From: Phycomyces blakesleeanus NRRL 1555(-)
Lineage: Eukaryota > Mucoromycota > Mucoromycetes > Mucorales > Phycomycetaceae
DNA: 64,000 bases
Reading direction: 5' to 3'
Assembly (NCBI RefSeq): GCF_001638985.1
Contig: NW_017265157.1
Coordinates: 62,001-126,000, forward strand
Shown piece after piece: positions 1 to 50,743 of the stretch. The position numbers and the translations under genes were made by a program. The notes under the pieces are model-generated. The model was not told where the DNA came from and searched no databases. It worked only from the letters and a program-made list of their open reading frames with translations. The stretch's first letter is position 1. Every line of letters starts with the position of its first letter.

Positions 1-223
1 AAAAAGAGAGGGGAAAGAGAAGATCAAATCATACTAGCTTCAATGGCTGAATCTGCTCTCCACTTTGCAGCTGTGAAAATAGTTGTAACAGTGAAAGGGA
101 GGAGACAGAATTGCAGAACAAAGAACTTTTCAGACAGCAAAGGACAAAAGAGAAAGAAGAGAGATAAAGGGAGTAAAGAACAATGAAAAGTGAAGAGCTA
201 TGAAAGAAAAGAAAAAGTCTAAA

Positions 224-3200
224 TTATATCCAAAGAGCACCATGTTCAGTCTCATGTGAATAGTCACCATCAGGATTACATATAACATCTATGTGCCAGA
301 GAATAGTCAGCAGTGGTATCCAGTAAGCAGGTCGCGGTTCTTGAGATGACAAAGGCAAGGATGTGATGGCAAAATCAATTCTGTGTATCTGATCTTGGTC
401 AGGTTGAGGCAACTGTTCAAATAGTGCCATAGGAACAAGTGGGCAATCCAACAAATGGCGGCGTGAGGTGTGATCTGATCCACAAGGACATTCCTTTGGT
501 TTGCCTGGTAACCACCCCATTCTCCAACGAATCAAACGGCTACGTTCCACACGTGAGGCTGGCAAAAACAAGATTGGATCAACTCCAAGAACTGGGCGGC
601 ATGCTTGAATGAGAACTTGCGTATTAGACTGGAGAAAGGTTGCAAATCCAGCTTCTCTAATGCTTTCAAAATGATTTTTTACAGCACTAGGGCTTCGAAG
701 TTTGAGTGTTGGAGGGAGATTGGACAGAAGACGGGTTTTTCCCAAGGAGACAAGTGAAGAATAGACGGTATGATGACGGTGCAAAAGAGACAGAAGGCAC
801 TGGGCTGGCAAAAAGCGTGATCTTATACAGAACTTGGCCATAAGAGCATCGGCACGAAACTTCATACTTGGCAGATTGCAGATGTGCTTTAACACAATTG
901 TAGAGGACGTGGCATGCCCCCCAACAATCATGCGAAGACACTTATCTTGAATGGACTCCAGCACTTTGATATCTTGCTTCAGTAGAGTGGAGATTGCCAA
1001 ACCATATTCAAACTTTGGGCGGACAAAGGTCTTATACAATCGTGAACTGAGCAGCAGAGAAAAACCAGAACGACAAGCACCAACAGAGTTTAGGGTTGCC
1101 ATTGTAGCGAGTGTACCAGAACGTCTATGAGTGGCAATGGACTTGGAAGAAATACCCTTATTGGCAAAAGGAACACCCAGATAAATAAACAGGTCAGTGG
1201 CAGGGAGAACTTGACCATATAAAAGAAGAGAAACTGGCGAGCTTGCACGTGTTTTGGGATATATAACTTCACATTTGGTGGGGCTCCATCGATATCCAAG
1301 AGTAAGAGAGTGGTCTGCAGCAAGGTCTAGCATGGCCTGAACGTCTGAAAGAGAACCAAAAATAGCTACATCGTCGGCAAAGAGCAGAGAATTGATGGGT
1401 GTTGAGAAATGAATATGTCCAAAGCCATCTACACCTGAAGGAGCAAGAAGAGCATTATATGCATCCAATGAGGTAGGAGAGGGTGATGGAACATGGGTTG
1501 TAGTTTGTGAGTGAGCAACTGTGCGGAGCAATGGGGGCAGGGAGTTGATATATATTGAATACAGATGTGGACTGAGGACAGAACCTTGGAGAACCCCAGT
1601 GGCAGGTGAGAACGAGTGTGAAGAAAAGTTACCCAAAAGGACACAGATAGAGACATTGTCAAACATGTTAACCAAGAGACCCAAAAGTGCCGGTGGAGTG
1701 CAACGTTTTTGTAAAGCATGCCAGATGATTCGTCGATCCACTGTATCATAGGCAGCCTTGATATCCAGAAATGCAACAACAGGGTAGTGCTTATGACGGT
1801 GATAATAGGCTTTCATCAGATCATGGAGACAGAGAGCTTGATCCAAAGCACCACGGCGAGGACGAAAACCACCTTGAGCCACATCCAAAGGAGGAGAGTA
1901 CTTGTGCAACTGGGGGGCTATACACATCTCAAAAAGCTTACGCAGTACAGAGGTCAAGGAGATTGGTCGGTAGTTTGCCGGGTCAGTTGGACTACCCTTC
2001 TTGAAGATTGGGAAGACCTGGGCTTGGCGCCACAAACTTGGAACATATGACCATTGCCAGCAAACTGTAAATAATAAAGTAAGAATGGGTGAGACATGTG
2101 TTTTTATAGGTTTTAGCATTTCAGCTCTGATAAGGTCTGGTCCTGGTGCCTTGCGGTTAGGCATAAATTGCATGAATTCCTCTACAATTGGTGAGGTAAA
2201 GGGAGAGTCATCAGAGGCAAAAGGCACACTGTTACAAGTGGTCATTGGTGCTGGTGGTCGGGTTGCTGGAAGTATATGTCCACTATATACTGTTGCCAAA
2301 TAGTCACACATTGTTGCTGCTGCTACGGCTGGTCCATCATCGTGCTGGAAAGTATGTTGCGGCTGTCTACGGCGTTTTAACTGCTTTATCTTTGATGTTG
2401 CTTTGCTGAAGTCACGTTCCATAGACTGACAAAAGACATGCCAAGACTGACGTTTTGCTTGCTGAACCTGAGATCGGAATTCGGCCTGTGCATGCTTGTG
2501 TTTAGTCCACCAAACAACTTTGTCAATACCTATTGCCAGGCGCCATTTTTTGTAACATTGGTTACGACGATCTGCTGCTGTTTGCAAAGCTACATTCCAG
2601 AAGGATTTCCAATGATTTGGGCGAGAGGGTCGATGTCCAATTGAGCTATTTAATGAGTCATAAATGAGTAAATTGAACTCATCAGTGATAGCATCAATGT
2701 TGGGTCTAGTGAGTGGTGGATTCTGAACAATGTCTTGCAAGGTGGAAAGGAGGGAGGTCGAGTTTTGATTGAAGGTATGAGCATAAAGAGCATGGACATC
2801 AGGTTCATTGAGGCGTGAGAGGTTCCATGTCTTGCGTAATGGTGGTGGCATATTGGTAGAGTGCTGTAGATCATAGGTAAAGGAAAGTGATAAAAGGCGA
2901 TGATCTGATCCAAGAGACAAGTCAGTAGCAATATGAAGAGAAGGATTGATGAGTGGCATATTAGTTATAAAGAGGTCAATAATACTGCTGATTTCATAGT
3001 TGTTGCGGAAAGAAATATATGTTGGTATGCAAGGTGCAAGATCTGCATTTACAACTGATAGAGATCTCTCTTCTATCCAAGAACATAGTGCCAGTCCACG
3101 AGAATTTGATGCATAGTCACCAGTAACAGAGCCAAGTCTTGCATTGAAGTCACCACAAAGAATGGTATCATATGTTAAAGGAATGGAAGAGAGTACATGT

Positions 3201-3547
3201 AGGACATCATGAGTGGGCATATTTGGTGGAAGATATAAGCATACAATTCTGAGTGAGCCAATTTTGACAGCCAGAGCATATTTGGAGGGCATAGGTATTT
3301 GAGTGACGGCATAAGGACAGTGAGGTGATATGAGAACAGAAACACCCATAGAGCCCCTATATGTGCCAGCTACAGGAGACCCATACAAGTGAATTTGTGA
3401 CCATGATGTGGGAAGATGTGAGGGAGAGAGAAGCCATGTTTCTGTAATGAAGAGCATATGTAAGGACTGACAGTGTTGAAGGGTATCTTGAATGGCTCTG
3501 GGTTGCAGGCCATTGGCATTCCATAATCCGATATTGAGATTACTCAT
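224..3547 (-). CDS. LINE ORF2: APE endonuclease / reverse transcriptase
   Basis: The 1107-residue protein should nick target DNA and prime reverse transcription at the nick. Residues 1-220 form an exonuclease-endonuclease-phosphatase fold, with ITETW (Glu36), GDFN (132-135) and SDH (214-216). The reverse transcriptase follows: NRKAPGPD near 464, the FLDIKAAYD motif A with Asp595, the GVLQGSVLSP region near 651, and FADD at 723-726. Near the C terminus is a zinc-knuckle-like CPCG...H...C motif. The start codon overlaps the ORF1 stop as ATGA, which suggests termination-reinitiation. The frame is intact. In the second copy (46769-50092) two nonsense codons break it. Function follows from family membership; specificity for tRNA genes is inferred from the insertion sites. 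Confidence 0.95.
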   Translation of the reverse strand: MSNLNIGLWNANGLQPRAIQDTLQHCQSLHMLFITETWLLSPSHLPTSWSQIHLYGSPVAGTYRGSMGVSVLISPHCPYAVTQIPMPSKYALAVKIGSLRIVCLYLPPNMPTHDVLHVLSSIPLTYDTILCGDFNARLGSVTGDYASNSRGLALCSWIEERSLSVVNADLAPCIPTYISFRNNYEISSIIDLFITNMPLINPSLHIATDLSLGSDHRLLSLSFTYDLQHSTNMPPPLRKTWNLSRLNEPDVHALYAHTFNQNSTSLLSTLQDIVQNPPLTRPNIDAITDEFNLLIYDSLNSSIGHRPSRPNHWKSFWNVALQTAADRRNQCYKKWRLAIGIDKVVWWTKHKHAQAEFRSQVQQAKRQSWHVFCQSMERDFSKATSKIKQLKRRRQPQHTFQHDDGPAVAAATMCDYLATVYSGHILPATRPPAPMTTCNSVPFASDDSPFTSPIVEEFMQFMPNRKAPGPDLIRAEMLKPIKTHVSPILTLLFTVCWQWSYVPSLWRQAQVFPIFKKGSPTDPANYRPISLTSVLRKLFEMCIAPQLHKYSPPLDVAQGGFRPRRGALDQALCLHDLMKAYYHRHKHYPVVAFLDIKAAYDTVDRRIIWHALQKRCTPPALLGLLVNMFDNVSICVLLGNFSSHSFSPATGVLQGSVLSPHLYSIYINSLPPLLRTVAHSQTTTHVPSPSPTSLDAYNALLAPSGVDGFGHIHFSTPINSLLFADDVAIFGSLSDVQAMLDLAADHSLTLGYRWSPTKCEVIYPKTRASSPVSLLLYGQVLPATDLFIYLGVPFANKGISSKSIATHRRSGTLATMATLNSVGACRSGFSLLLSSRLYKTFVRPKFEYGLAISTLLKQDIKVLESIQDKCLRMIVGGHATSSTIVLKHICNLPSMKFRADALMAKFCIRSRFLPAQCLLSLLHRHHTVYSSLVSLGKTRLLSNLPPTLKLRSPSAVKNHFESIREAGFATFLQSNTQVLIQACRPVLGVDPILFLPASRVERSRLIRWRMGWLPGKPKECPCGSDHTSRRHLLDCPLVPMALFEQLPQPDQDQIHRIDFAITSLPLSSQEPRPAYWIPLLTILWHIDVICNPDGDYSHETEHGALWI

Positions 3548-4449
3548 TCAGACATAGTGACTGATGAGCTGCGCTGACGTTTGAACAAAGACCCGCCAGT
3601 AGCATTGGTAAGAGTAGTACGTGTTGGTATTTCATCTTCACTGATCCACCCTTCCTCACAAAAGAAGTGACCAACTGGGATAGCAACGTGTGGGCGCAAG
3701 AACTGTAGGGCTTGGAGACATCTATCATGGTGAAGCATGGCAGCAGTGTTGGCAAGTTCATGAGTGGACAGAGATGCATACTTGGGATCAGCAACATTAT
3801 CAGGATCAAGTGGATCAAATGCGTCCAAAATCTCAACAGAAGCAGTTGTCAGTTTGGCCTTAAATGTATCAGCATACTGGACATGAACAAGGATGCCAAT
3901 GACACCTCTGGCTGGGAAGTTAATGTCCAAAAGTCGAGAAGAATCCACACCAAGAGTGCGGAGAGAGGAACGGACTTCTTTGTGCTTAAGGCGTCTTGAT
4001 CTTGGAATATAAACATATTCATAACCTGAAGGACCAGAGGGAAGAGCAAACATACGAACAGAAGCTGCAATACGGTGAGCAGAGGGAACAGTAGACATTT
4101 TTGGGGCAGTTACAGGAAGAGAAACACTGGCTTTAGTAGCCCAAGTGGAGGCTTCCAGACCTGGTTCTTTGTTTTTGTCAGGAGCACCTACTGCGCCGGC
4201 TGGGTTCGAAAGTGAAATTTCTGAAAAGTTTTTTTCAGATGCACTCTGAGATCCTAATTGCTTCTGCAGATTAGCAATTGTTGTTCTAGCATGGTCTAAT
4301 TCAGTAGTTAGTCTTGCATTCTCTGCTGCAAGTCGCTCCAACTGGTCGGTTCTGTTTTGCACATTCATGATTTGTGCCTGCAATGTTGTCAGGAATGAGG
4401 TAAGCTCGGTTGGCAATCCCTGCATGTTGCCGATTTGCAAATTGGCCAT
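3544..4449 (-). CDS. LINE ORF1: coiled-coil RNA-binding candidate
   Basis: The 301-residue protein lies upstream of ORF2 in the LINE. Residues 15-70 are a strong heptad-type coiled coil (LERLAAENARLTTEL...). A low-complexity Ser/Thr/Pro linker follows, then a folded C-terminal part of unknown type that begins near VRMFALPSG. No CCHC knuckle is visible, unlike many LINE ORF1 proteins. By position it should be the RNA-binding chaperone that coats the element's transcript, but no domain proves this. It is identical in the copy at 45867-46772. The stop TGA overlaps the ORF2 start by one base (ATGA). Confidence 0.88.
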   Translation of the reverse strand: MANLQIGNMQGLPTELTSFLTTLQAQIMNVQNRTDQLERLAAENARLTTELDHARTTIANLQKQLGSQSASEKNFSEISLSNPAGAVGAPDKNKEPGLEASTWATKASVSLPVTAPKMSTVPSAHRIAASVRMFALPSGPSGYEYVYIPRSRRLKHKEVRSSLRTLGVDSSRLLDINFPARGVIGILVHVQYADTFKAKLTTASVEILDAFDPLDPDNVADPKYASLSTHELANTAAMLHHDRCLQALQFLRPHVAIPVGHFFCEEGWISEDEIPTRTTLTNATGGSLFKRQRSSSVTMSE

Positions 4450-4686
4450 TGGGATTGAGAATGCAGATGGCGTGATGTTGTCTGATTGAGCTGAAATTTT
4501 TTTTTGCTGACAGCTGGGATACCAAGGACAAGGACTGCACTACTTTTGGCAATGGGAGGTACGTTTTTCGTGATGGATGGATCGTTTTGCGTAAAGATGT
4601 TGATGGATGGATACACTTTATATGTGGATTCGTCAAAAATAAAATTTTGGAACCAGGCAAATAAAATGCTTAAGCGAAAGAGCAGT
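4450..4686 (-). promoter_or_regulatory. LINE 5' UTR / internal promoter candidate
   Basis: The 237-bp leader sits between the LINE 5' terminus and the ORF1 ATG. The same leader occurs at 45630-45866 and, with few changes, at 50444-50680. Since the element starts exactly at the tRNA boundary, promoter activity must lie inside it or use DNA of the tRNA gene. I see no clear TATA box. A promoter here is inferred from position only. Confidence 0.4.
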
Positions 4687-4759
4687 GGGGATGTAGCTCA
4701 AATGGTAGAGCGCTCGCTTAGCATGCGAGAGGCACTGGGATCGACGCCCAGCTTCTCCA
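4687..4759 (+). tRNA. tRNA-Ala (anticodon AGC)
   Basis: The 73 bases fold as a cloverleaf: acceptor GGGGATG with CTTCTCC, D stem GCTC/GAGC, anticodon stem CTCGC/GCGAG with loop TTAGCAT (anticodon AGC), T stem CTGGG/CCCAG and discriminator A. One acceptor pair (T6/T67) is mismatched and one is a G-T wobble, so the gene may be slightly degenerate. The LINE at 1-4686 begins at the base before position 1. Confidence 0.9.
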
Positions 4760-5359
4760 TTTGATGAAGATATCTGTTATCATCTCTTTGTGTATTCAAT
4801 TATTTTTGATACTTTTGGAAAGTCTATATTTCCTGATATGTCATAAATGTCAAGTCTCGATCTGGTATTTCTTTTCTGGCACTTGTAACTAAGTCGCAGA
4901 ATCAATACCACTGGGGATCGTCAAGTTTATGAATAGTTTTTAGATAAGAATGAAGATGCTTTTTATTAAATATATTTCTTGACTATTTATACAAAATGAT
5001 AATTGATTTCTGGCTAAAAGAATAGCTACAATAATATGTCTTAGATGCCTGTTGTCCAGTAATATCTTCTACAAGTACATTCACCATCTTAAACATCTAA
5101 AACATATATGAAAGACTAATCGGCAAAGTCAAGATCTTTTATTCTAAAAAGTCAACTCTTACTGATTGCTTATAACTACCACTTTTGTTCACCAATGTCA
5201 ACTCTGACATAAATATTTAACCGAAATAGTGACTGCCAATACTTTTTCTTGTTTTTGAATTGTTTGTTTGAAACAAAGATTCTATATCCCCTGAAAGCGC
5301 ATTTTTTATTTACACATATTGCTATTAAACATGTCTACTGTCAATATTACACCAACGAA
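4760..5359 (+). mobile_element. PIF/Harbinger-like 5' portion (interrupted by solo LTR)
   Basis: This stretch, minus the LTR at 4848-5209, is alignable with the reverse complement of about 44861-45058, including GTGACTGCCAAT and a short ATG-started segment at about 5331. Both lie immediately outside the tnp-side end of a CACTA-type element. On the other side of element A the sequence continues into a Harbinger gene 1 remnant (18725 onward), so I read it as the promoter and start of that gene. No terminal repeat was located. The assignment to Harbinger is inference. Confidence 0.45.
4848..5209 (+). mobile_element. Solo LTR (362 bp, gypsy-type)
   Basis: It starts TGTCA and ends TGACA, a perfect terminal inverted repeat, and is flanked by TAAA on both sides (4844-4847 and 5210-5213). 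The beginning (GTCTCGATCTGG...CACTGGGGATC) resembles the gypsy LTRs at 24625 and 30637. The homologous flank near 45000 lacks it, which gives an empty site. Orientation and family are not certain. Confidence 0.75.
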
Positions 5360-24464: not shown

Positions 24465-24547
24465 TCCAAGTTGTCCGAGTGGTCTAAGGAGTCTGACTTA
24501 AGATCAGATCCTCGTAAGAGGGCGAGGGTTCAAACCCCTCACTTGGA
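24465..24547 (+). tRNA. tRNA-Leu (anticodon UAA)
   Basis: The 83 bases form a type II tRNA: acceptor TCCAAGT with ACTTGGA (perfect), anticodon stem TCTGA/TCAGA with loop CTTAAGA (anticodon TAA), a long variable arm, and T arm GAGGG TTCAAAC CCCTC. There is no intron. TTTT follows at 24556 as a likely Pol III terminator. The gypsy element 1 LTR begins 77 bp downstream. Confidence 0.93.
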
Positions 24548-24624
24548 ATATTCTATTTTGGGTTGTTCTTCACTGTGTTGTGTGTCGGGCATTATTTTGA
24601 TGAATCCATAAAATCTGAAGATAG

Positions 24625-24943
24625 TGTCGTTCCCGATCTGGGTTGGTCTTCCTTTTACTATAACAAAGAAAAGGTCAAACCCACTGGGGATCAAGGAGTA
24701 TACGTAAAATCAAAGAGAGGATCAAAGATGCCTTTTATTGATAGGAATTGAATTGTCTTATATAGTTTTCTAAACTAATACTGCGCATTATCCGCAGTAA
24801 ACTATTATACTCTATTTAATTACAAGAGAAGTCCTTTTACTGCGGTTGATGCTCAGAAGATGTTACTGTGGTTAATCTTTACAAGACATTACTGCAGTTC
24901 GTTATCTATGAGGTATCTTTGACATACAGAACTGCTGCGGTCA
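24625..24943 (-). repeat. 3' LTR of gypsy element 1
   Basis: 319 bp; on the minus strand it starts TGACCGCAG and ends GGGAACGACA. It matches 29667-29889 over the part before the gap. Confidence 0.88.
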
Positions 24944-24944
24944 A

Positions 24945-27900
24945 TTATCCCGATTTCTCGGATTCATCAAAATAATGTCCGACATCACCCCCTCTCGAAA
25001 CTGTTGATCGTCCTCGGTCAACTCTGGTAGACTCTATCATCGAGAACGGCAAGGTGGAAGAGGAATCTATGGCCAGATCACGTCGCATATTGTTACGAGC
25101 AGCGGTCGGGTGATACCAGGTGCGGTCAAAATCGTCGGATTTGGCTATTTTGAGACGGTCAGCATGAACCCAAGAAGTATAAGGGACACCTTCCATTGTT
25201 GTGAGCTTGTATATATTCTTATCGAAATTTTTATCTACTACAATATATGGGCCCATCCAGTTATATTCTAGTCCAAATTTGTTTTCATGCCGCAACAACA
25301 AATGTTCACCGATTGCGAACTGATGAGGTTTCATGATCGAATCCCATCGTTCCTTGTCTTGTTGGCTGTTGGCGGTTACTCGAGCATCAGCATTTTTGCG
25401 AGCCTGTTGGAGATTACGAAGAAAAGGGATAGCACCATCGGATACGAGGGTCGGGTCGTCAGGGATAGATGTATCCATAAATGGACGTAGGGGATTGCCA
25501 GGAATACGAGGTTCGTGGCCATAAGTCAAGAAAAATGGACTGAACCCAGTTGTATGATGCTTTCTGATTCGGCAAGCCCAAAGTGCTGTTTCCAGATATT
25601 CGTCCCACCAGTGAATGGCACCATGTACATATTTACGTAACATCTGTTTAAGAACACCATTTAACCTTTCACATTTTCCATTAGTACGTGGGTGAAATGC
25701 TGAGGTTAATTTATGATGGAGCTTAATTTTCTTAATGTAAAAGCTCAAAATATGTGACATAAAGTTTGCACCACGATCTGTCAGAATTTCGTCTGGGCAA
25801 CCAAAACGCATGACTATTTCTTCGTACAAAAAGTTGGTGATGGCTTCGCCCGTAGCAGCAGGAACAGCACGTGCAATTGGCCAATTCGTAGCGTAGCCGA
25901 CGGCAACCAAAATCCATCGATTTCCATTGATTGTAGTGGGAAGTTCTCCAATGAAATCGAGATGCCAATGAGAGAAAGCAGGGGGGATATCCAATGGTTC
26001 CAAAGGGGCATGGTGTATGTTGCGTTCTGCGTTTGAGGCCAATTGACATTGATGACATTTCGATAACCATTCTTGAATTTGACTTCTCATGGCTGGCCAC
26101 CACCAACGCTTCTTCATTAAATCATACACCGTTGTTTCTCCAGCATGTCCGAAACCATTGTGGAAATTATTTACTAAGTCTGCACGCTTGGCAAACAGTG
26201 CAAAACGAATTTCTTGTACCGTGTCACCTATTTTAACGAGACGGAAAACCTTTTGGTCGTGGACCACAAACTTATTGCGTTGCCGATGGAGTAATTCTTT
26301 TATGTCTTCTGGCCATTCATCTTCTTTTCGTGCATAAAATTTTGGCCAGTCGGACGTTTGTGAGTCTGGTATGGTGTACAGGTATTCTGGTTCCATTGAT
26401 TTAATTAATGTTGCATCGTATTCTGGGCCATCGAGACGAGAGAGCACATCAGGGACACCATTGTCTTTGCCCGGTTTATATTGAATTATCGGGTCATACA
26501 GCTCGAATTCAGAAATCCACCTTATCAGGCGAGGCGTGGGCTTAACCTGACTGCGAAAATACTTGAGTGGTAAGTGATCGGTGAATACAGTGAACGGTTT
26601 TCCTTCGATCATGCAGCGCCAAGTATGCAAGGCATGTAGAATACCAAGTAACTCGCGCTCTTGAGCAGGATACGATCTTTCGGCAGGGGAGAGTTTTTTC
26701 GATTCGAACGCTAATGGTTTCCAACTTCCGTTTTCGTCTTCTTGCATTAATACGGCACCAACACCAAAATCTGAAGCATCTGTTTCAATGCGGAATGGTT
26801 TATCCATGTCTGGGGCAAGTAATACAGGTGCAGTACTCATTTTCTCTTTTAGTAAATCGAAACTTTCCTGGCATGTCTCCGTCCAAACGATAGGCCGTTG
26901 TTTTGGTCCTGTCCCTTTAGTTAAGTCTGTTAAGGGCGCAGCAATTCCAGCAAACCCAGGGATGAAGCGGCGGTAGTGCTGTGCAAGGCCAATAAATTGT
27001 CTAACTTCTTGTACATTTGTTGGCGGTGTCCATTCTTTTATAGTCTTTACTTTGTCTGGCGATGGTAAGATGCCTTGCGCAGATACGTTGAATCCAAGGA
27101 AAGTTAGTTCGTTTTTGTTAAATTCGCATTTTTTAAGGTTGGCAATTAATTTCGCTTCACGTAGTCGGTTTAACACATGTCGTACATGTTCTTCGTGTTC
27201 TTCTGGTGTTGTGCTAAAGATTAGGATATCATCCAAATAGACTAAGGCAAACTTATCCAAACAATCTCCAAGAACTTTGTTCATAAGATGCTGAAACGTC
27301 GGTAGGGCATTGGTGAGACCAAAGGGAAGAACCAGAAACTCGTATTGGCCATATCGGGTGTTAAAGGCGGTTTTTGGCACATCTGAGTCTTGAATTCTCA
27401 CTTGATGGTAACCGCTTTTGAGGTTCAAACTGGTGAAATGGTTTGCTCCACGAAGGCGTTCCAAACACTCATCGATGCGTGGCAATGGATGGTTATTGTG
27501 GATAGTAACTTTGTTCAGGGCTCTGTAATCAACACACATGCGCATCTCACCATTTTTCTTTTTAACAAATAAAATTGGAGCACCCCATGGCGAAGAACTC
27601 GGACGAATTAAGCCGAGGTCTAGAAGTTCCTTTAGTTGTTGCTGTAATTCGTCGAGTTCTCGAGGGCTCATTTTGAATGGCGGTTTATTGACAGGGTAGG
27701 CATCTCCAGTGTTTATAACGTGTTGGACGTCACGGTTCGGCGGTAATCCAGGTAAACCGTCTTGGAAAACGTCCTCGAATTCTTTTACTAATTTCATCCA
27801 GTGTTCATCATTATGTATTTCTTTTTCTGTCTTAATGTGCAACAAAAAGCATTCGGCCTCCTCTCTCCTAGAGAGTTTCTCAATTTGTTTTGCAGATATC

Positions 27901-28522
27901 AGATAGTTTAGGTGAGGTTTAGTAGGACGGGGCCCATGAGGACGCAAAATAAATTCTTGTTCATCACGATGTAAAGACCAGCTATCGACATGCCAATCTG
28001 GGACGGGTTTAGCCATTTGCAACCAAGTGCGGCCAAGAATCAAGTCGAATTTAGTGGGAAATACAAAAGCATTGATGGTGTCAGTGTATCCATTTAAAGA
28101 GAGGTTTAATGTTGCCTTCTGATGGATCTTAATGCTGTGTCCTCCTGCAGTTTCGACTGATCGTCCGGGTATATCCAAAATGTGTGTAGCCAAATGGGCG
28201 ATCTGGGGTGATACATAGTTTGCACTAGCACCACTATCAATTAACACCAGAATTTGTTGTCCGTCAAGTATAGCGGCGTATAAGGGCAAGTCTGTGTCCA
28301 CGGCAGCATGGAGATCTTCTAAGAAATGTTGGTCAGCGGTGAGAAAAGGGTCACAATTTTCTTCAGACATAGTCTCAGGCTCTTCATTGGTAACATTTGT
28401 ATACTGTTCAGACACGTCTTTATTAATTTCTGGTTCGCTAGTTTCGCTAATATTATTAGCCTGTGGGGAGGATTTTTCTTCCATTGAACACAACCAACCT
28501 CCCGTTACGGTTGTGTTTCGCG
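24945..28522 (-). CDS. Gypsy Pol: protease, reverse transcriptase, RNase H, integrase (reached by -1 frameshift)
   Basis: The first in-frame ATG is at 28484, but the frame is open from a -1 slip site at 28523-28529, so it is probably made as Gag-Pol. Counting from a TTG codon at 28493 (1182 residues), the parts are: protease LIDSGAS near 85, RT with CVDYRALNKVT (320) and YLDD (419-422), RNase H with TDASDFGVGA (571), and integrase with an HHCC zinc site (His778, His783, Cys813, Cys816) and Asp846, Asp906, Glu942. A GPYIVVDK motif follows near the C terminus. The RT motif A reads SLNLKSGYHQ, with Asn357 where Asp is needed. Gypsy 2 keeps SLDLKSGYHQ. The reading frame is intact but the RT is probably inactive. 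Confidence 0.93.
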
Positions 28523-28529
28523 AAAACCC
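28487..28529 (-). promoter_or_regulatory. Programmed -1 ribosomal frameshift signal between gag and pol
   Basis: On the minus strand, the heptamer GGGTTTT (28523-28529) is in the correct register of the gag frame (G GGT TTT). A 5-nt spacer follows, then a perfect 9-bp stem AACACAACC/GGTTGTGTT (28509-28517 with 28487-28495) with a 13-nt loop that contains the gag stop. Slipping back one base enters the pol frame exactly. Confidence 0.8.
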
Positions 28530-29626
28530 TGCTTCTTGCTACGTGCCTCATCTAACTGTCTAATCGCTGCTAATCGATCCCTACAGTTCCTCTTGAAGTG
28601 ACCAACTTTGCCGCACCAATGGCAAGTAGCCACATTACGTTTCTGAGGGGGGCAAGATCGGTAGTTATTACGGCGACCTTGAATCGCATCCAGGTCCATG
28701 GGCTCGGGACCACTGTACTGCTGTTGGTACGGCTGTTGGTACGTCTGTTGGTACGGTTGAGGGACGGGTGCGTAGTTGGTCTGTTGCCCCAAGTGGAGGC
28801 CACTGGCATATGCCAAAGCGATGTTGCAGGCATCGTCAACGTCGACAGGTCGGGCGGCAAGAACATTTCCTCGTATGGTGGGGTGAAGTCCGCGGACAAA
28901 CTTGTCGAGGGCTTCTTCATCGTTCATTCCAGGCAACTCCAACTGGATGTCGTGGAACGCGTCGATGTACTCTGCGACCGTTCCCGTTTGGTACAGTCGA
29001 GCAAGGCGGTCCCTGGACGTCTGTAGTGAGTAGACTGGACGGAATTCTCCCGACAGAGCCATCTTGGACTCATCCCAGGTTGTTGGATGTTTGTCCTTTA
29101 CTTCCATGCGTCTCCACCATGTGTCTGCTCTGTCACGCAACAGATTCACTGCAAATTCACAGGCTTTTGTTGCGGAAAAATTGTAGTATCTGGTGTAACG
29201 TTCGACTGCGCGCAGCCAACCATCCACTACTGTGGCAGAACGTTCTCCATGGAAGCAATCAGGTTGCTTGATTCGTTCAGCACGGGCCTCCTGCTGCACC
29301 GTGATTGCTTTCATTGCTTCGGCGACGGCAGCAGCAATTGCTTCAGCTGTTAGAGTGGCGGTTTGGGGGGCCATTGTTTCTTCTTGTTCTTGTTTGTTCT
29401 TTCCTGTTAAGGTTGCAGCTAGTTTTGTGGCTAGTTCGGTCCACTTCTGTTCTCGGGCAGGGGTCTTCTTAATACGCTGTTCTTCAGGGATATGAGGAAC
29501 ACGCCGATTCTTCTTGTAGTCGTTTACTAATTCGCTAGGTAACAAGTCCTGGACTCGTTCTTCAATCTCGAATTGGCTAAGGGTCTTCTTATCAAATATG
29601 TCTTGGTGTCTTTCAACCGGATTCAT
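28505..29626 (-). CDS. Gypsy Gag (capsid and CCHC nucleocapsid)
   Basis: From the ATG at 29626 the protein has 373 residues; the frame is open up to the primer-binding region at 29665. The central part (WLRAVERYTRYY...DRADTWWRRME...FRPVYSLQTSRDRL) is a retrotransposon Gag capsid domain. A Gln/Tyr-rich linker (YQQTYQQPYQQQY) follows. One zinc knuckle, CHWCGKVGHFKRNC, lies near the C terminus and should bind the genomic RNA. It is upstream of pol, and the -1 shift signal overlaps its last codons. Confidence 0.92.
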   Translation of the reverse strand: MNPVERHQDIFDKKTLSQFEIEERVQDLLPSELVNDYKKNRRVPHIPEEQRIKKTPAREQKWTELATKLAATLTGKNKQEQEETMAPQTATLTAEAIAAAVAEAMKAITVQQEARAERIKQPDCFHGERSATVVDGWLRAVERYTRYYNFSATKACEFAVNLLRDRADTWWRRMEVKDKHPTTWDESKMALSGEFRPVYSLQTSRDRLARLYQTGTVAEYIDAFHDIQLELPGMNDEEALDKFVRGLHPTIRGNVLAARPVDVDDACNIALAYASGLHLGQQTNYAPVPQPYQQTYQQPYQQQYSGPEPMDLDAIQGRRNNYRSCPPQKRNVATCHWCGKVGHFKRNCRDRLAAIRQLDEARSKKQGFRETQP

Positions 29627-29666
29627 CAAAGGTCTTGTTAGAGGAAAAATAGCTTCAGCTACCAAT

Positions 29667-29889
29667 TGTCGTTCCCGATCTGGGTTGGTCTTCCTTTTAC
29701 TATAACAAAGTCAAAAGGTCAAACCCACTGGGGATCAAGGAGTATACGTAAAATCAAAGAGAGGATCAAAGATGCCTTTTATTGATAGGAATTGAATTGT
29801 CTTATATAGTTTTCTAAACTAATACTGCGCATTATCCGCAGTAAACTATTATACTCTATTTAATTACAAGAGAAGTCCTTTTACTGCGG
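29667..29889 (-). repeat. 5' LTR of gypsy element 1 (partial)
   Basis: The sequence repeats 24625 onward, with a 2-base indel near the start, and is cut by the N gap at 29890. Confidence 0.88.
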
Positions 29890-45058: not shown

Positions 45059-45556
45059 GGAAAAAAAAGAAGGAAATGTAACTGCTGGGGATGCTCTTAC
45101 AGCATTGGAAGAAAAACCCAAATCGAAAACAACACCAGATTGAGAACAACAAATTTGCACATGATATAGACACAATGGTGTTGTGATTAATTTTTGTGAT
45201 ACAAGTTCTAGTGACTTGTTATTACAAAAGAAGCAGGAATTAGAATGATTATTCATCAGTTTGTAATTTTAGAAATTTGTAATCAGTTTATAATAATTTG
45301 TAATATTACTAAACACTACTTGAGTGTAGTCAAAGATTAATAATCATTTCAAAAAGTATATAAGATAACCCAAATTAAATAATAAAAATCATCTTTTTAT
45401 TCTCTCTCTTATTTGCTTACTTCTGTGTTATTAAAGCTTGACCAATTCGGCTACGTTTACAGTGAATTGGAAGATGGACTAGATCAGGAATGACAATGGC
45501 TTAAAAAATTATAAACCAACAATTTTTAAAACCATAAAAGATAATCAATGAATATA
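45059..45556. other. Diverged LTR-like remnants next to tRNA-Thr
   Basis: Pieces such as ACACCAGATTGAGAACAACA (about 45132) and GATCAGGAATGACA (about 45485) resemble the 3' ends of the gypsy LTRs in plus orientation, and a TATA-like AGTATATAAGATAACC precedes the second. I cannot set borders. The 3' side of tRNA-Thr is included. Confidence 0.35.
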
Positions 45557-45629
45557 TGCCTTCTGCCAGAATTGAACTGGCGACCTTCTGCTTACTAGGC
45601 AGACGCTCTGCCAACTGAGCCAAGAAGGC
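45557..45629 (-). tRNA. tRNA-Thr (anticodon AGU)
   Basis: The minus strand folds perfectly: acceptor GCCTTCT/AGAAGGC, D stem GCTC/GAGC, anticodon stem TCTGC/GCAGA with loop CTAGTAA (anticodon AGT), T stem GCCAG/CTGGC and discriminator A. TTTT follows about 25 nt downstream. LINE copy 2 starts at the base before tRNA position 1. Confidence 0.95.
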
Positions 45630-45866
45630 ACTGCTCTTTCGCTTAAGCATTTTATTTGCCTGGTTCCAAAATTTTATTTTTGACGAATCCACATATAAAG
45701 TGTATCCATCCATCAACATCTTTACGCAAAACGATCCATCCATCACGAAAAACGTACCTCCCATTGCCAAAAGTAGTGCAGTCCTTGTCCTTGGTATCCC
45801 AGCTGTCAGCAAAAAAAAATTTCAGCTCAATCAGACAACATCACGCCATCTGCATTCTCAATCCCA

Positions 45867-46772
45867 ATGGCCAATTTGCAAATCGGCAACATGCAGGGAT
45901 TGCCAACCGAGCTTACCTCATTCCTGACAACATTGCAGGCACAAATCATGAATGTGCAAAACAGAACCGACCAGTTGGAGCGACTTGCAGCAGAGAATGC
46001 AAGACTAACTACTGAATTAGACCATGCTAGAACAACAATTGCTAATCTGCAGAAGCAATTAGGATCTCAGAGTGCATCTGAAAAAAACTTTTCAGAAATT
46101 TCACTTTCGAACCCAGCCGGCGCAGTAGGTGCTCCTGACAAAAACAAAGAACCAGGTCTGGAAGCCTCCACTTGGGCTACTAAAGCCAGTGTTTCTCTTC
46201 CTGTAACTGCCCCAAAAATGTCTACTGTTCCCTCTGCTCACCGTATTGCAGCTTCTGTTCGTATGTTTGCTCTTCCCTCTGGTCCTTCAGGTTATGAATA
46301 TGTTTATATTCCAAGATCAAGACGCCTTAAGCACAAAGAAGTCCGTTCCTCTCTCCGCACTCTTGGTGTGGATTCTTCTCGACTTTTGGACATTAACTTC
46401 CCAGCCAGAGGTGTCATTGGCATCCTTGTTCATGTCCAGTATGCTGATACATTTAAGGCCAAACTGACAACTGCTTCTGTTGAGATTTTGGACGCATTTG
46501 ATCCACTTGATCCTGATAATGTTGCTGATCCCAAGTATGCATCTCTGTCCACTCATGAACTTGCCAACACTGCTGCCATGCTTCACCATGATAGATGTCT
46601 CCAAGCCCTACAGTTCTTGCGCCCACACGTTGCTATCCCAGTTGGTCACTTCTTTTGTGAGGAAGGGTGGATCAGTGAAGATGAAATACCAACACGTACT
46701 ACTCTTACCAATGCTACTGGCGGGTCTTTGTTCAAACGTCAGCGCAGCTCATCAGTCACTATGTCTGAATGA
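45867..46772 (+). CDS. LINE ORF1, copy 2
   Basis: 301 residues, the same sequence as the copy at 3544-4449: N-terminal coiled coil, Ser/Thr/Pro linker, unknown C-terminal fold. Probably binds the element RNA. It overlaps the ORF2 start by ATGA. Although this copy's ORF2 is dead, an intact ORF1 could still act in trans. Confidence 0.88.
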   Translation: MANLQIGNMQGLPTELTSFLTTLQAQIMNVQNRTDQLERLAAENARLTTELDHARTTIANLQKQLGSQSASEKNFSEISLSNPAGAVGAPDKNKEPGLEASTWATKASVSLPVTAPKMSTVPSAHRIAASVRMFALPSGPSGYEYVYIPRSRRLKHKEVRSSLRTLGVDSSRLLDINFPARGVIGILVHVQYADTFKAKLTTASVEILDAFDPLDPDNVADPKYASLSTHELANTAAMLHHDRCLQALQFLRPHVAIPVGHFFCEEGWISEDEIPTRTTLTNATGGSLFKRQRSSSVTMSE

Positions 46773-49700
46773 GTAATCTCAATATCGGATTATGGAATGC
46801 CAATGGCCTGCAACCCAGAGCCATTCAAGATACCCTTCAACACTGTCAGTCCTTACATATGCTCTTCATTACAGAAACATGGCTTCTCTCTCCCTCACAT
46901 CTTCCCACATCATGGTCACAAATTCACTTGTATGGGTCTCCTGTAGCTGGCACCTATAGGGGCTCTATGGGTGTTTCTGTTCTCATATCACCTCACTGTC
47001 CTTATGCCGTCACTCAAATACCTATGCCCTCCAAATATGCTCTGGCTGTCAAAATTGGCTCACTCAGAATTGTATGCTTATATCTTCCACCAAATATGCC
47101 CACTCATGATGTCCTACATGTACTCTCTTCCATTCCTTTAACACATGATACCATTCTTTGTGGAGACTTCAATGCAAGACTTGGCTCTGTTACTGGTGAC
47201 TATGCATCAAATTCTCGTGGACTGGCACTATGTTCTTGGATAGAAGAGAGATCTCTATCAGTTGTAAATGCAGATCTTGCACCTTGCATGCCAACATATA
47301 TTTCTTTCCGCAACAACTATGAAATCAGCAGTATTATTGACCTCTTTATAACTAATATGCCACTCATCAATCCTTCTCTTCATATTGCTACTGACTTGTC
47401 TCTTAGATCAGATCATCGCCTTTTATCACTTTCCTTTACCTATGATCTACAGCACTCTACCAATATGCCACCACCATTACGCAAGACATGGAACCTCTCA
47501 CGCCTCAATGAACCTGATGTCCATGCTCTTTATGCTCATACCTTCAATCAAAACTCGACCTCCCTCCTTTCCACCTTGCAAGACATTGTACAGAATCCAC
47601 CACTCACTAGACCCAACATTGATGCTATCACTGATGAGTTCAATTTACTCATTTATGACTCATTAAATAGCTCAATTGGACATCGACCCTCTCGCCCAAA
47701 TCATTGGAAATCCTTCTGGAATGTAGCTTTGCAAACAGCAGCAGATCGTCGTAACCAATGTTACAAAAAATGGCGCCTAGCAATAGGTATTGACAAAGTT
47801 GTTTGGTGGACTAAACACAAGCATGCACAGGCCGAATTCCGATCTCAGGTTCAGCAAGCAAAACGTCAGTCTTGGCATGACTTTTGTCAGTCTATGGAAT
47901 GTGACTTCAGCAAAGCAACATCAAAGATAAAGCAGTTAAAACGCCGTAGACAGCCGCAACATACTTTCCAGCACGATGATAGACCAGCCGTAGCAGCAGC
48001 AACAATGTGTGACTATTTGGCAACAGTATATAGTGGACATATACTTCCAGCAACCCGACCACCAGCACCAATGACCACTTGTAACAGTGTGCCTTTTGCC
48101 TCTGATGACTCTCCCTTTACCTCACCAATTGTAGAGGAATTCATGCAATTTATGCCTAACCGCAAGGCACCAGGACCAGACCATATCAGAGCTGAAATGC
48201 TAAAACCTGTAAAAACACATGTCTCACCCATTCTTACTTTATTATTTACAGTTTGCTGGCAATGGTCATATGTTCCAAGTTTGTGGCGCCAAGCCCAGGT
48301 CTTCCCAATCTTCAAGAAGGGTAGTCCAACTGACCCGGCAAACTACCGACCAATCTCCTTGACCTCTGTACTGCGTAAGCTTTTTGAGATGTGTATAGCC
48401 CCCCAGTTGCACAAGTACTCTCCTCCTTTGGATGTGGCTCAAGGTGGTTTTCGTCCTCGCCGTGGTGCTTTGGATCAAGCTCTCTGTCTCCATGATCTGA
48501 TGAAAGCCTATTATCACCGTCATAAGCACTACCCTGTTGTTGCATTTCTGGATATCAAGGCTGCCTATGATACAGTGGATTGACGAATCATCTGGCATGC
48601 TTTACAAAAACGTTGCACTCCACCGGCACTTTTGGGTCTCTTGGTTAACATGTTTGACAATGTCTCTATCTGTGTCCTTTTGGGTAACTTTTCTTCACAC
48701 TCGTTCTCACCTGCCACTGGGGTTCTCCAAGGTTCTGTCCTCAGTCCACATCTGTATTCAATATATATCAACTCCCTGCCCCCATTGCTCCGCACAGTTG
48801 CTCACTCACAAACTACAACCCATGTTCCATCACCCTCTCCTACCTCATTGGATGCATATAATGCTCTTCTTGCTCCTTCAGGTGTAGATGGCTTTGGACA
48901 TATTCATTTCTCAACACCCATCAATTCTCTGCTCTTTGCCGACGATGTAGCTATTTTTGGTTCTCTTTCAGACGTTCAGGCCATGCTAGACCTTGCTGCA
49001 GACCACTCTCTTACTCTTGGATATCGATGGAGCCCCACCAAATGTGAAGTTATATATCCCAAAACACGTGCAAGCTCGCCAGTTTCTCTTCTTTTATATG
49101 GTCAAGTTCTCCCTGCCACTGACCTGTTTATTTATCTGGGTGTTCCTTTTGCCAATAAGGGTATTTCTTCCAAGTCCATTGCCACTCATAGACGTTCTGG
49201 TACACTCGCTACAATGGCAACCCTAAACTCTGTTGGTGCTTGTCGTTCTGGTTTTTCTCTGCTGCTCAGTTCATGGCTGTATAAAACTTTTGTTCGCCCA
49301 AAGTTTGAATATGGTTTGGCTATTTCCACTCTGCTGAAGCAAGATATTAAAGTTCTGGAGTCCATTCAAGATAAGTGTCTTCGCATGATTGTTGGGGGGC
49401 ATGCCACGTCCTCTACAATTGTGTTGAAGCATATCTGCAATCTGCCAAATATGAAGTTTCGTGCAGATGTTCTTATAGCCAAATTTTGTATCAGATCACG
49501 CTTTCTGCCTGCCCAGTGCCTTTTGTCTCTTTTACACCGTCATCATACCATCTATTCTTCACTTGTCTCCCTGGGAAAAACCCATCTTCTGTCACATCTC
49601 CCTCCAACACTCAAACTCCAAAGCCCTAGTGCAGTAAAAAACCATTTTGAAAGCATTAGAGAAGCTGGATTTACAACCTTTCTCCAGTCCAATACACAAG

Positions 49701-50092
49701 TTCTCATTCAAGCATGCCGCCCAGTTCTTGGAGTTGATCCAATTTTGTTTCTGCCAGCCTCACATGTGGAACGTGGCCGTTTGATTCGTTGGAGAATGGG
49801 GTGGTTACCAGGCAAACCAAAGGAATGTCCTTGTGGATCAGATCACACCTCACGCCGCCATTTATTGAATTGCCCACTTGTTCCTGTGGCACTATTTGAA
49901 CAGTTGCCTTAACCTGACCAAGATCAGATACACAGAATTGATTTTGCCATCACATCCTTGCCTTTGTCATCTCAAGAACCACGACCTGCTTACTGGATAC
50001 CACTGCTGACTATTCTTTGGCACATAGATATTATATGTAATCCTGATGGTGACTATTCACATGAGACTGAACATGGTACTCTTTGGATATAA
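46769..50092 (+). pseudogene. LINE ORF2, copy 2, two nonsense codons
   Basis: It has the same length as the intact 224-3547 ORF. Codon 605 (CGA in copy 1, directly after AAYDTVD of RT motif A) is TGA at 48581-48583, and a CAA after FEQLP is TAA at 49910-49912. Both are C-to-T changes. The endonuclease part (residues 1-220) remains intact. The frame is otherwise open, so these stops are recent. Confidence 0.92.
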
Positions 50093-50428
50093 TTTAAACC
50101 TTTTTCTTTTCTTTTCTAGTTCTCTACTTTTCTTTTCTTTTTTCTTGCTTTGCATCTCTTCTTTCTCTTTTGTTCCCCTCTGTATGAAAAGTTCTTTGTT
50201 CTGCAATTCTGTCTCCTCCCTTTCACTGTTACAACTATTTTCATAGCTGCAAAGCAGAGAGCAGGTTCAGCCATTGAAGCTAGTATGATTTGATCTTCTC
50301 TTTTCCCTCTCTTTTTTTTGTCTTTTGTGATCCCTTGGGACTTTTTTATATCTTCTTTTTGTACTTTGGAGGCTATATGATCTATAGATCGCCAGCAATA
50401 TCTCCTTTAATAAAATATAATCTTTAAC

Positions 50429-50443
50429 CTGAGCCAAGAAGGC
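50429..50443 (+). repeat. 15-bp target-site duplication from tRNA-Thr 5' end
   Basis: CTGAGCCAAGAAGGC, identical to 45615-45629, that is, bases 1-15 of tRNA-Thr in reverse complement. It separates LINE copy 2 from LINE copy 3. Confidence 0.9.
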
Positions 50444-50737
50444 GACTGCTCTTTCGCTTAAGCATTTTATTTACCTGGTTCCAAAATTTTATTTTTGACG
50501 AATCCACATATAAAGTGTATCTATCCATCAACATCTTTACGCAAAACGATCCATCCGTCACGAAAAACGTACCTCGCATTGCCAAAAGTAGTGCAGTCCT
50601 TGTCCTTGGTATCCCAGCTGTCAGCAAAAAAAAATTCAGCTCAATCAGACAATATCACGCCATCTGCATTCTCAATCCCAATGGCCAATTTGCAAATCGG
50701 CAATATACAGGGATTACCAACTGAGCTTACCTCATTC
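50444..50737 (+). mobile_element. LINE copy 3, 5' 294 bp, cut by element D
   Basis: It starts GACTGCTCTTTCGC with one extra G compared with copies 1 and 2. It covers the 5' UTR and the first about 20 codons of ORF1, with several base differences (MANLQIGNIQGLPTELTS). It ends where the terminus of CACTA element D begins (50738). The remainder may lie beyond D, outside the window. It is older than copy 2. Confidence 0.88.
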
Positions 50738-50743
50738 CACTGG

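Follow-up and report, generated by a model that had tools for sequence, protein, structure and literature searches.

A LINE of Phycomyces blakesleeanus that probably inserts at a fixed position inside tRNA genes

Analysis of the window, a stretch of 64,000 nucleotides (C24:62001-126000) of the 53.5-Mb Phycomyces blakesleeanus NRRL1555 assembly, and of related copies elsewhere in this genome points to a 4.8-kb APE-type LINE that inserts site-specifically inside tRNA genes, apparently by TPRT from a nick at CTCA. Judged from sequence, we give this reading as a whole a probability of about 0.88. The element is antisense to the tRNA and joins it at two points, with its 3′ end behind A14 in the A box, directly after GCTCA, and with its 5′ end at base 1. 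Nucleotides 1-14 of the tRNA are present on both sides of the element, so that the gene is intact and could serve as a target again. Since a 14-nt copy of a tRNA start, or something close to one (the head), stands behind all 56 of the 3′ ends read, the gene would have been broken at A14 and rebuilt by duplication, and the abutment at base 1 would result from the stagger. Use of the same nucleotide position in a multicopy gene, the mark of site-specific LINEs of the R1/R2 manner, was seen at 56/56 3′ junctions and 56/58 5′ junctions.

The element and its copies in the window

Copy 1, of the A type, fills positions 1..4686 on the minus strand, with its 5′ end at 4686 and its 3′ end 112 bases to the left of the window (C24:61888). 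It carries an ORF1 of 301 aa without a confident domain (3544..4449, minus strand) and an ORF2 of 1107 aa (224..3547, minus strand) with an APE-type endonuclease, a reverse transcriptase (RT) and a C-terminal C-x-C...H...C motif. Its target is the whole tRNA-Ala(AGC) gene at 4687..4759 on the plus strand, whose nucleotides 1-14 (GGGGATGTAGCTCA, 4687..4700, plus strand) form the 5′-side half of the duplication; the other half lies on C24 just left of the window. Copy 2, likewise of the A type, spans 4800 bp (45630..50429, plus strand), terminates with ...AATAAAATATAATCTTTAACC without poly(A), and contains ORF1 (45867..46772, plus strand) and ORF2 (46769..50089, plus strand), the latter 98% identical to ORF2 of copy 1 and interrupted by two in-frame stops. 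Here the target is the whole tRNA-Thr(AGT) gene (45557..45629, minus strand); its nucleotides 1-14 (GCCTTCTTGGCTCA, 45616..45629, minus strand) form the 5′-side half of the duplication and their reverse complement, TGAGCCAAGAAGGC (50430..50443, plus strand), forms the 3′-side half. An extra G at 50444 is followed by a 5′ fragment of copy 3 (50445..50738, plus strand), an older insertion into the same tRNA-Thr gene.

An earlier note on this DNA had placed the end of copy 1 at 4686 before a tRNA-Ala start at 4687, and the start of copy 2 at 45630 beside a tRNA-Thr start at 45629 on the other strand, and these coordinates are confirmed. ARAGORN calls tRNA-Ala(AGC) at 4686-4760 (plus strand) and tRNA-Thr(AGT) at 45556-45630 (minus strand), with one base added at each end; the mature tRNA starts read from the sequence are 4687 and 45629, respectively. 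Both copies begin with ACTGCTCTTTCGCTTAAGC directly at the tRNA and together form an inverted repeat of 98% identity, gapless over 4520 nt and extending over 4687 nt by BLAST; two tRNA genes thus indeed carry one element at the same zero spacing.

The order of domains is that of an APE-type LINE, with an endonuclease/exonuclease/phosphatase domain followed by an RT in one ORF and with ORF1 ahead of it; target-site duplication and 5′ truncation are both present as well. In Pfam, ORF2 matches PF14529 (endonuclease, 5.6e-13) and PF00078 (RT, 1.1e-23), with PF03372 below its cut-off; no RNase H family was found in the window ORF2 (E <= 0.001) and no transposase family in ORF1 or ORF2. A profile of 16 sequences, the window ORF2 and 15 homologues, matches human LINE-1 ORF2p (4.6e-54, positions 5-780) in a ranking against PDB chains, few of them LINEs; the L1 clade is a candidate placement. 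C1020, C1022, H1031 and C1035 are invariant across the 16-sequence alignment.

At least 42 ORF2 loci (47 pieces) were scored in the genome, 14 of them full length without stops. Most are either 93-100% or 68-73% identical to the window ORF2, with a few between (78-90%). By their 5′ ends, the copies belong to type A (ACTG...), type B (ATCT...) or type C (ACTT...). When one 5′ end per type is compared without gaps, the first 19 nt agree pairwise at 14, 16 and 17 of 19 positions; in gapped comparison the agreement falls to 58-65% over the next 100 nt and to 50-51% over the 100 after. Copies have no oligo(A); their last letters are ...AATCTTTAACC, or close to it, and the tRNA head comes next. Homologues of ORF2 are abundant among the proteins of Mucorales and among those of one Umbelopsis; at the DNA level no relatives outside Phycomyces were confirmed in scans of viral contigs and genome contigs.

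A second LINE family, D (P0112-like; C17, C22, C28, C13), has an ORF2 that is 41-42% identical. Its copies recur at ~5.23-kb spacing on C17 and C22, which suggests that family D also stacks at a fixed site. None of 13 copies checked by script lies within 8 kb of the best 63 of 2452 tRNA candidates, and none was seen within 30 kb of 25 U6 matches when coordinates were compared by eye.

Other repeats in the window also lie near tRNA genes. A Ty3/gypsy element (24465-24889 and 24945-29889) is located ~75-120 bp downstream of tRNA-Leu, with gag at 28505-29665, pol at 24945-28493, and identical 177-bp stretches at 24669 and 29713 that we take as LTR parts; similar LTR-like copies are found ~45-120 bp downstream of tRNA genes at four loci (L066, L074, L076, L088). 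A repeat of ~365 bp at 4848-5210, L087 and L090, and of ~330 bp in L065, starts ~50-90 bp downstream of tRNA genes and is possibly another solo LTR. In Rhizopus oryzae, Ty3 elements are described as often co-localizing with tRNA genes (PMC2699053).

Junctions across the genome

A search with the 3′-terminal 35-mer yielded 55 places, which together with one met in other examined DNA gave the 56 3′ ends read. The next 14 nt are equal to the reverse complement of a tRNA start in 44/56 (Ala 27, Thr 16, Ile 1) and resemble one in 12/56. Among these inexact heads, eight are nearest to Ala, Thr, Ile or Tyr with 1-2 mismatches, one is Tyr-like with 3 mismatches, and three have GCTCA but match no tRNA read. 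TGAG begins 54 of the 56 heads, the other two starting with TGAA and TAAG, and it also comes first at two more decayed 3′ ends that were read separately (C1:3190000-3190350, C4:2965500-2965800). CTCA stands at the place of the 3′ junction in every whole gene that was read, whether Ala, Thr, Ile, Tyr or Glu. The TGAG may be target sequence, or common to the target and the element end; if it is element sequence shared with the target, the true stagger is maybe 10-14 nt.

For the 5′ ends, pattern searches with up to 3 mismatches gave 26 A-type (30-nt terminus), 19 B-type and 9 C-type places, a search by pattern that misses strongly diverged copies; with four met in other examined DNA, these 54 make 58 5′ ends. 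A whole tRNA gene precedes 19 of them and a LINE 3′ end plus 14-nt tRNA head 37, and the remaining two are split by another transposon. What precedes the 26 A-type places is a whole Ala or Thr tRNA gene in 12 cases and a LINE 3′ end with its head in the other 14. The whole genes comprise ten Ala, seven Thr, one Ile (C28:566864) and one Tyr (C4:2960850), the last called Asn-GTT by ARAGORN and read here as an intron-bearing Tyr-GTA gene. Head-preceded 5′ ends carry Ala, Thr or Ile-like heads in 35/37 cases; the head at C28:196608 matched no tRNA here, and that at C1:62343 is mixed: ahead of a B-type LINE, C1:62312-62343 reads as a Thr head followed by AGCTACATCCCC, which equals nucleotides 1-12 of the Ala head. 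This join may have arisen by 5′ transduction, with antisense sequence of the donor tRNA carried along, or by recombination. In the two transposon-split cases (C1:90777, C4:2966633), the LINE start comes after a tRNA head on the far side of the transposon, with GG between them at C4.

These counts bear on several expectations of the earlier note. Its view that the arrangement was not chance holds, as 56/58 5′ ends genome-wide follow a whole tRNA or a tRNA head; chance is not a serious explanation given these counts, though some copies are not independent. Exact abutment stands in part: spacing between tRNA and LINE is zero in 14/19 cases, but one extra base is present in 5/19 and the tRNA-Glu copy described below is not at base 1. 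It had also regarded the idea as lost if most full-length copies had no tRNA gene at their 5′ end. Taken literally that is the case, with a whole tRNA at 19/58, but a tRNA head is found at 37/39 of the others, each behind the 3′ end of another copy, as is expected if later copies inserted in between.

Ten small regions were examined at 5′ ends predicted from ORF2 positions. One (L113) is a 5′ end split by another transposon. In six (L112, L115, L117, L119, L120, L121), no LINE 5′ end was seen and no tRNA gene either; these six count against the reading given here, though a misplaced prediction, truncation or rearrangement may lie behind them.

Outside the 58 ends, at C18:479623-479696, a tRNA-Ile(AAT) gene has a seemingly decayed C-type LINE start directly at base 1. 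Another transposon, with a start TGTCACGTGTTG or alike (GACACAAGTGTTG at C4:2965500), begins 9-11 nt past the tRNA head; its places are C1:89731, C4:2965500-2965800, C4:2971370, C14:379057, C25:362663, C28:201373 and C46:90843. It sits within a LINE 5′ end at some of them and within other flanking DNA at the rest, as if choosing sites just upstream of tRNA genes.

Also outside the 58 is a copy at C1:3185427, with a 70% identical ORF2, at a tRNA-Glu(CTC) gene. This tRNA begins with TCCTCAATGG, has TCCTCA at nucleotides 1-6 and so CTCA at nucleotides 3-6, and shows no GCTCA at nucleotides 10-14. The 5′ side of the copy reads TGAGGAGAATATAGTTCTTTTACG and the 3′ side AACC-TGAGGAGAACATAGTTATG; both share TGAGGAGAAYATAGTT, a duplication of 12-16 nt starting after CTCA, the 16-nt version of which has one difference and in its last 4 nt perhaps element sequence. 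The 5′ end of this copy lies 6-10 bp upstream of base 1. As the copy is displaced together with its CTCA, it would seem to be CTCA plus a stagger of ~14, and not base 1, that sets the insertion position, as far as one decayed copy can indicate; abutment at base 1 in Ala, Thr, Ile and Tyr genes would then follow from their GCTCA at nucleotides 10-14.

Proposed insertion mechanism and stacking of copies

In the model that we favor, ORF2p would nick the sense strand of the tRNA gene after CTCA (A14), and the 3′-OH would prime reverse transcription of the LINE RNA (TPRT), with the other strand cut 14 nt away, before base 1. Later insertions would enter between the gene and older copies, so that copies nearer the gene would be the younger ones. 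The requirement for CTCA may come from endonuclease preference, from CTCA/UGAG pairing in read-through RNA, or from both: copies end ~15 nt after an AATAAA without poly(A), which makes priming on read-through RNA via CTCA:UGAG possible. Capped donor RNAs, or longer ones begun in the antisense strand of the tRNA, could have left the extra G, C or GC seen at some 5′ joins as well as the 12 nt of Ala head at C1:62343. An alternative source is recombination between arrays, and the mixed join on C44 described below speaks for some recombination.

For the restriction to Ala, Thr, Ile, Tyr and Glu genes, plus two heads without an assigned tRNA, DNA sequence or Pol III factors would have to supply additional specificity. 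A tethering as for TRE5-A, with TFIIIB/TFIIIC guiding the element and the exact site reflecting a local endonuclease taste for CTCA, is compatible with insertion inside the gene and concerns the choice of gene; we rate it somewhat below even odds. In its favor, all hosts that could be identified are tRNA genes, the CTCA used by the tRNA-Glu copy lies away from the A-box position but still within a Pol III gene, CTCA alone would be far too common to confine insertions to tRNA genes, and TRE5-A is thought to act in this way (PMC5391098). Against tethering, the junctions are exact to the base and not spread over a window, and only two of the best 63 of 2452 tRNA candidates lie within 8 kb of any of the 42 ORF2 loci, at distances that do not fit a full copy abutting the gene, a comparison that copies without ORF2 escape.

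Copies are arranged head to tail behind one gene, with the 14-nt tRNA head at the joins. Chaining from tRNA genes through 3′ ends no more than 5.3 kb apart gave arrays with 29 joins, and the heads match the tRNA of their own array in 28/29, including an Ile head at the one chained Ile gene. The exception is C44:84083, where a Thr head lies inside an Ala array. The other 27/56 3′ ends are not chained to a tRNA gene, the intervening DNA being outside the sequence examined or rearranged. The longest array is that of the tRNA-Ala in the window, with five pieces: A, B, A, a 309-bp piece and A.

Occupancy was assessed for Ala-AGC and Thr-AGT genes only, since the RF00005 inventory covered the best 63 of 2452 candidates. 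Of the 27 genes matching internal patterns (15 Ala-AGC, 12 Thr-AGT), 22 are filled, one is probably filled and four are not. A full 5′ end adjoins 17/27, and 5′-truncated copies also reach base 1 at L066, L070, L087 and L090. The copy at L074 is diverged: its alignment breaks off 215 nt short, but an Ala head is attached to its 3′ end, which lies 913 bp away. L088 is the probable case, with a 70% identical stretch 45 bp off, and no LINE was found in the flank examined at L065, L076, L081 and L086.

Several of these places are related by more than the element. L072 (C10) and L077 (C35) have common flanks on both sides. In addition, two joins on C24 have counterparts on C35: the outer flank begins alike at C24:886561 and C35:345813, and an identical extra GC is present at C24:881747 and C35:350627. 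This indicates segmental duplication, so that the counts are not all independent. The arrays as such could accordingly go back to a few old insertions multiplied by unequal crossing-over or segmental duplication instead of repeated insertion, and these shared flanks and extra bases, like the mixing of Ala and Thr heads at C44:84083 and C1:62343, are what recombination between arrays would give. However, arrays mix A, B and C types, with ORF2 only ~68-73% identical between types, as well as truncated with full copies, and the extra bases differ among joins. We therefore consider this origin unlikely, though repeated insertion was likely accompanied by some segmental duplication.

That the tRNA belongs to the element, as a LINE headed by its own tRNA promoter and moving together with it, would account for the whole tRNA gene at 19/58 5′ ends, but the same element stands at different tRNAs with mostly unrelated downstream flanks, stacked copies lack a whole tRNA, four Ala/Thr genes have no LINE in the flank examined, and the heads behind 3′ ends together with the array order refute this very improbable reading. 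Insertion upstream of the gene at base 1, with the gene unbroken, agrees with zero spacing in 14/19 and is just as improbable, refuted by the duplication, since the gene must have been broken internally for a second copy of tRNA nucleotides 1-14 to stand behind the 3′ ends. The earlier note was thus right that insertion leaves the tRNA gene whole, but the 14-nt heads behind 56/56 3′ ends place the insertion inside the gene at A14 and not beside it. Its suggestion of a safe-site strategy is plausible, with one LINE family, a fixed position and a tRNA gene left whole.

Insertion at CTCA with restoration of the gene lends itself to a broader reading, which we put forward tentatively, as a little less probable than its opposite. 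A Mucoromycota LINE lineage would have evolved a cut-to-cut ruler of ~14 nt that matches the span between A14 and base 1, making an essential gene usable without net damage and re-usable without limit. The conserved 19-nt 5′ terminus would serve as the new 5′ flank of the gene, and tRNA genes would act as docks at which copies load head to tail, their order in the stack recording the order of insertion; the Rhizopus, Mucor and Umbelopsis homologues may do the same. If insertion inside the gene works as proposed, a retrotransposon uses a conserved essential gene as target without loss, its duplication rebuilding the gene, and offers a sequence-defined APE-type LINE site, directly behind CTCA in the A box, for testing endonuclease site choice, and perhaps also a way of placing insertions at multicopy safe sites. 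The stacks would then preserve the order of insertion; a question that they raise is how a tRNA gene functions when a LINE forms its 5′ flank.

Comparison with known systems

The earlier note named the Dictyostelium TRE elements as LINEs associated with tRNA genes at a distance, and thought exact abutment in a fungus-like genome to be new. LINEs with closer ties to tRNA genes are, however, in print. NeSL-1_TV (tRNA-Pro), LIN15_SM (tRNA-Arg) and LIN25_SM (tRNA-Glu) are described as tRNA-gene-specific non-LTR retrotransposons (PMC4640811). These NeSL-related elements belong to the restriction-like endonuclease group, with one tRNA type named for each, whereas the Phycomyces LINE is APE-type and is found at Ala, Thr, Ile, Tyr and once Glu genes; its ORF2 has an N-terminal APE-type domain, and NeSL/R2-like elements are marked by a C-terminal restriction-like endonuclease. 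NLTR-A of D. purpureum sits 2-6 bp upstream of tRNA genes (PMC5006619) and resembles our element in lying almost at base 1. It differs in having an RNase H after the RT, of which we found none in the Phycomyces ORF2, and the available part of that source describes no within-gene duplication for NLTR-A.

Dictyostelium TRE5 elements insert within a window 40-54 bp upstream of tRNA genes, are linked to Pol III factors/TFIIIB and carry an oligo(A) tail (PMC5391098, PMC5911963). TRE5-A and its relatives share with the Phycomyces LINE the APE type, the location upstream of tRNA genes and a zinc-finger-like C terminus (PMC5391098, PMC5911963). In contrast to TRE5, the Phycomyces LINE is exact at A14, its 5′ end touches base 1 (at tRNA-Glu it lies 6-10 bp upstream), and it has no oligo(A).

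Further systems share single features. Zebrafish Dewa is a site-specific tRNA-linked LINE, but is reported in a tRNA-Leu spacer and not in the gene (PMC3706591). Dada DNA transposons of Perkinsus use the same A-box sequence in several tRNA genes, with the duplication TAGCTC, but are described with a DDE transposase and a 6-7 bp duplication (PMC3706591), whereas the Phycomyces ORFs show no transposase family. Grem-LINE1 of Mucor, compared by description only, is like our element an L1-like Mucoromycotina LINE with two ORFs; it is pericentric and has a zf-RVT domain, and the portion of its description at hand makes no tRNA link (PMC7377519). The available portions of PMC5035012, PMC10886601, PMC7928374 and PMC5014426 hold no closer match, and among the matches listed from open-licence literature, as far as their available text goes, no description of this Phycomyces element was found.

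Since TRE5, NLTR-A and NeSL each fail a tested feature, the Phycomyces element is filed as an APE-type LINE that works like the site-specific LINEs, and not as a member of any of these three. LINEs that target tRNA genes were thus already known; the exact A-box site, the duplication that restores the gene and the stacking of copies look new.
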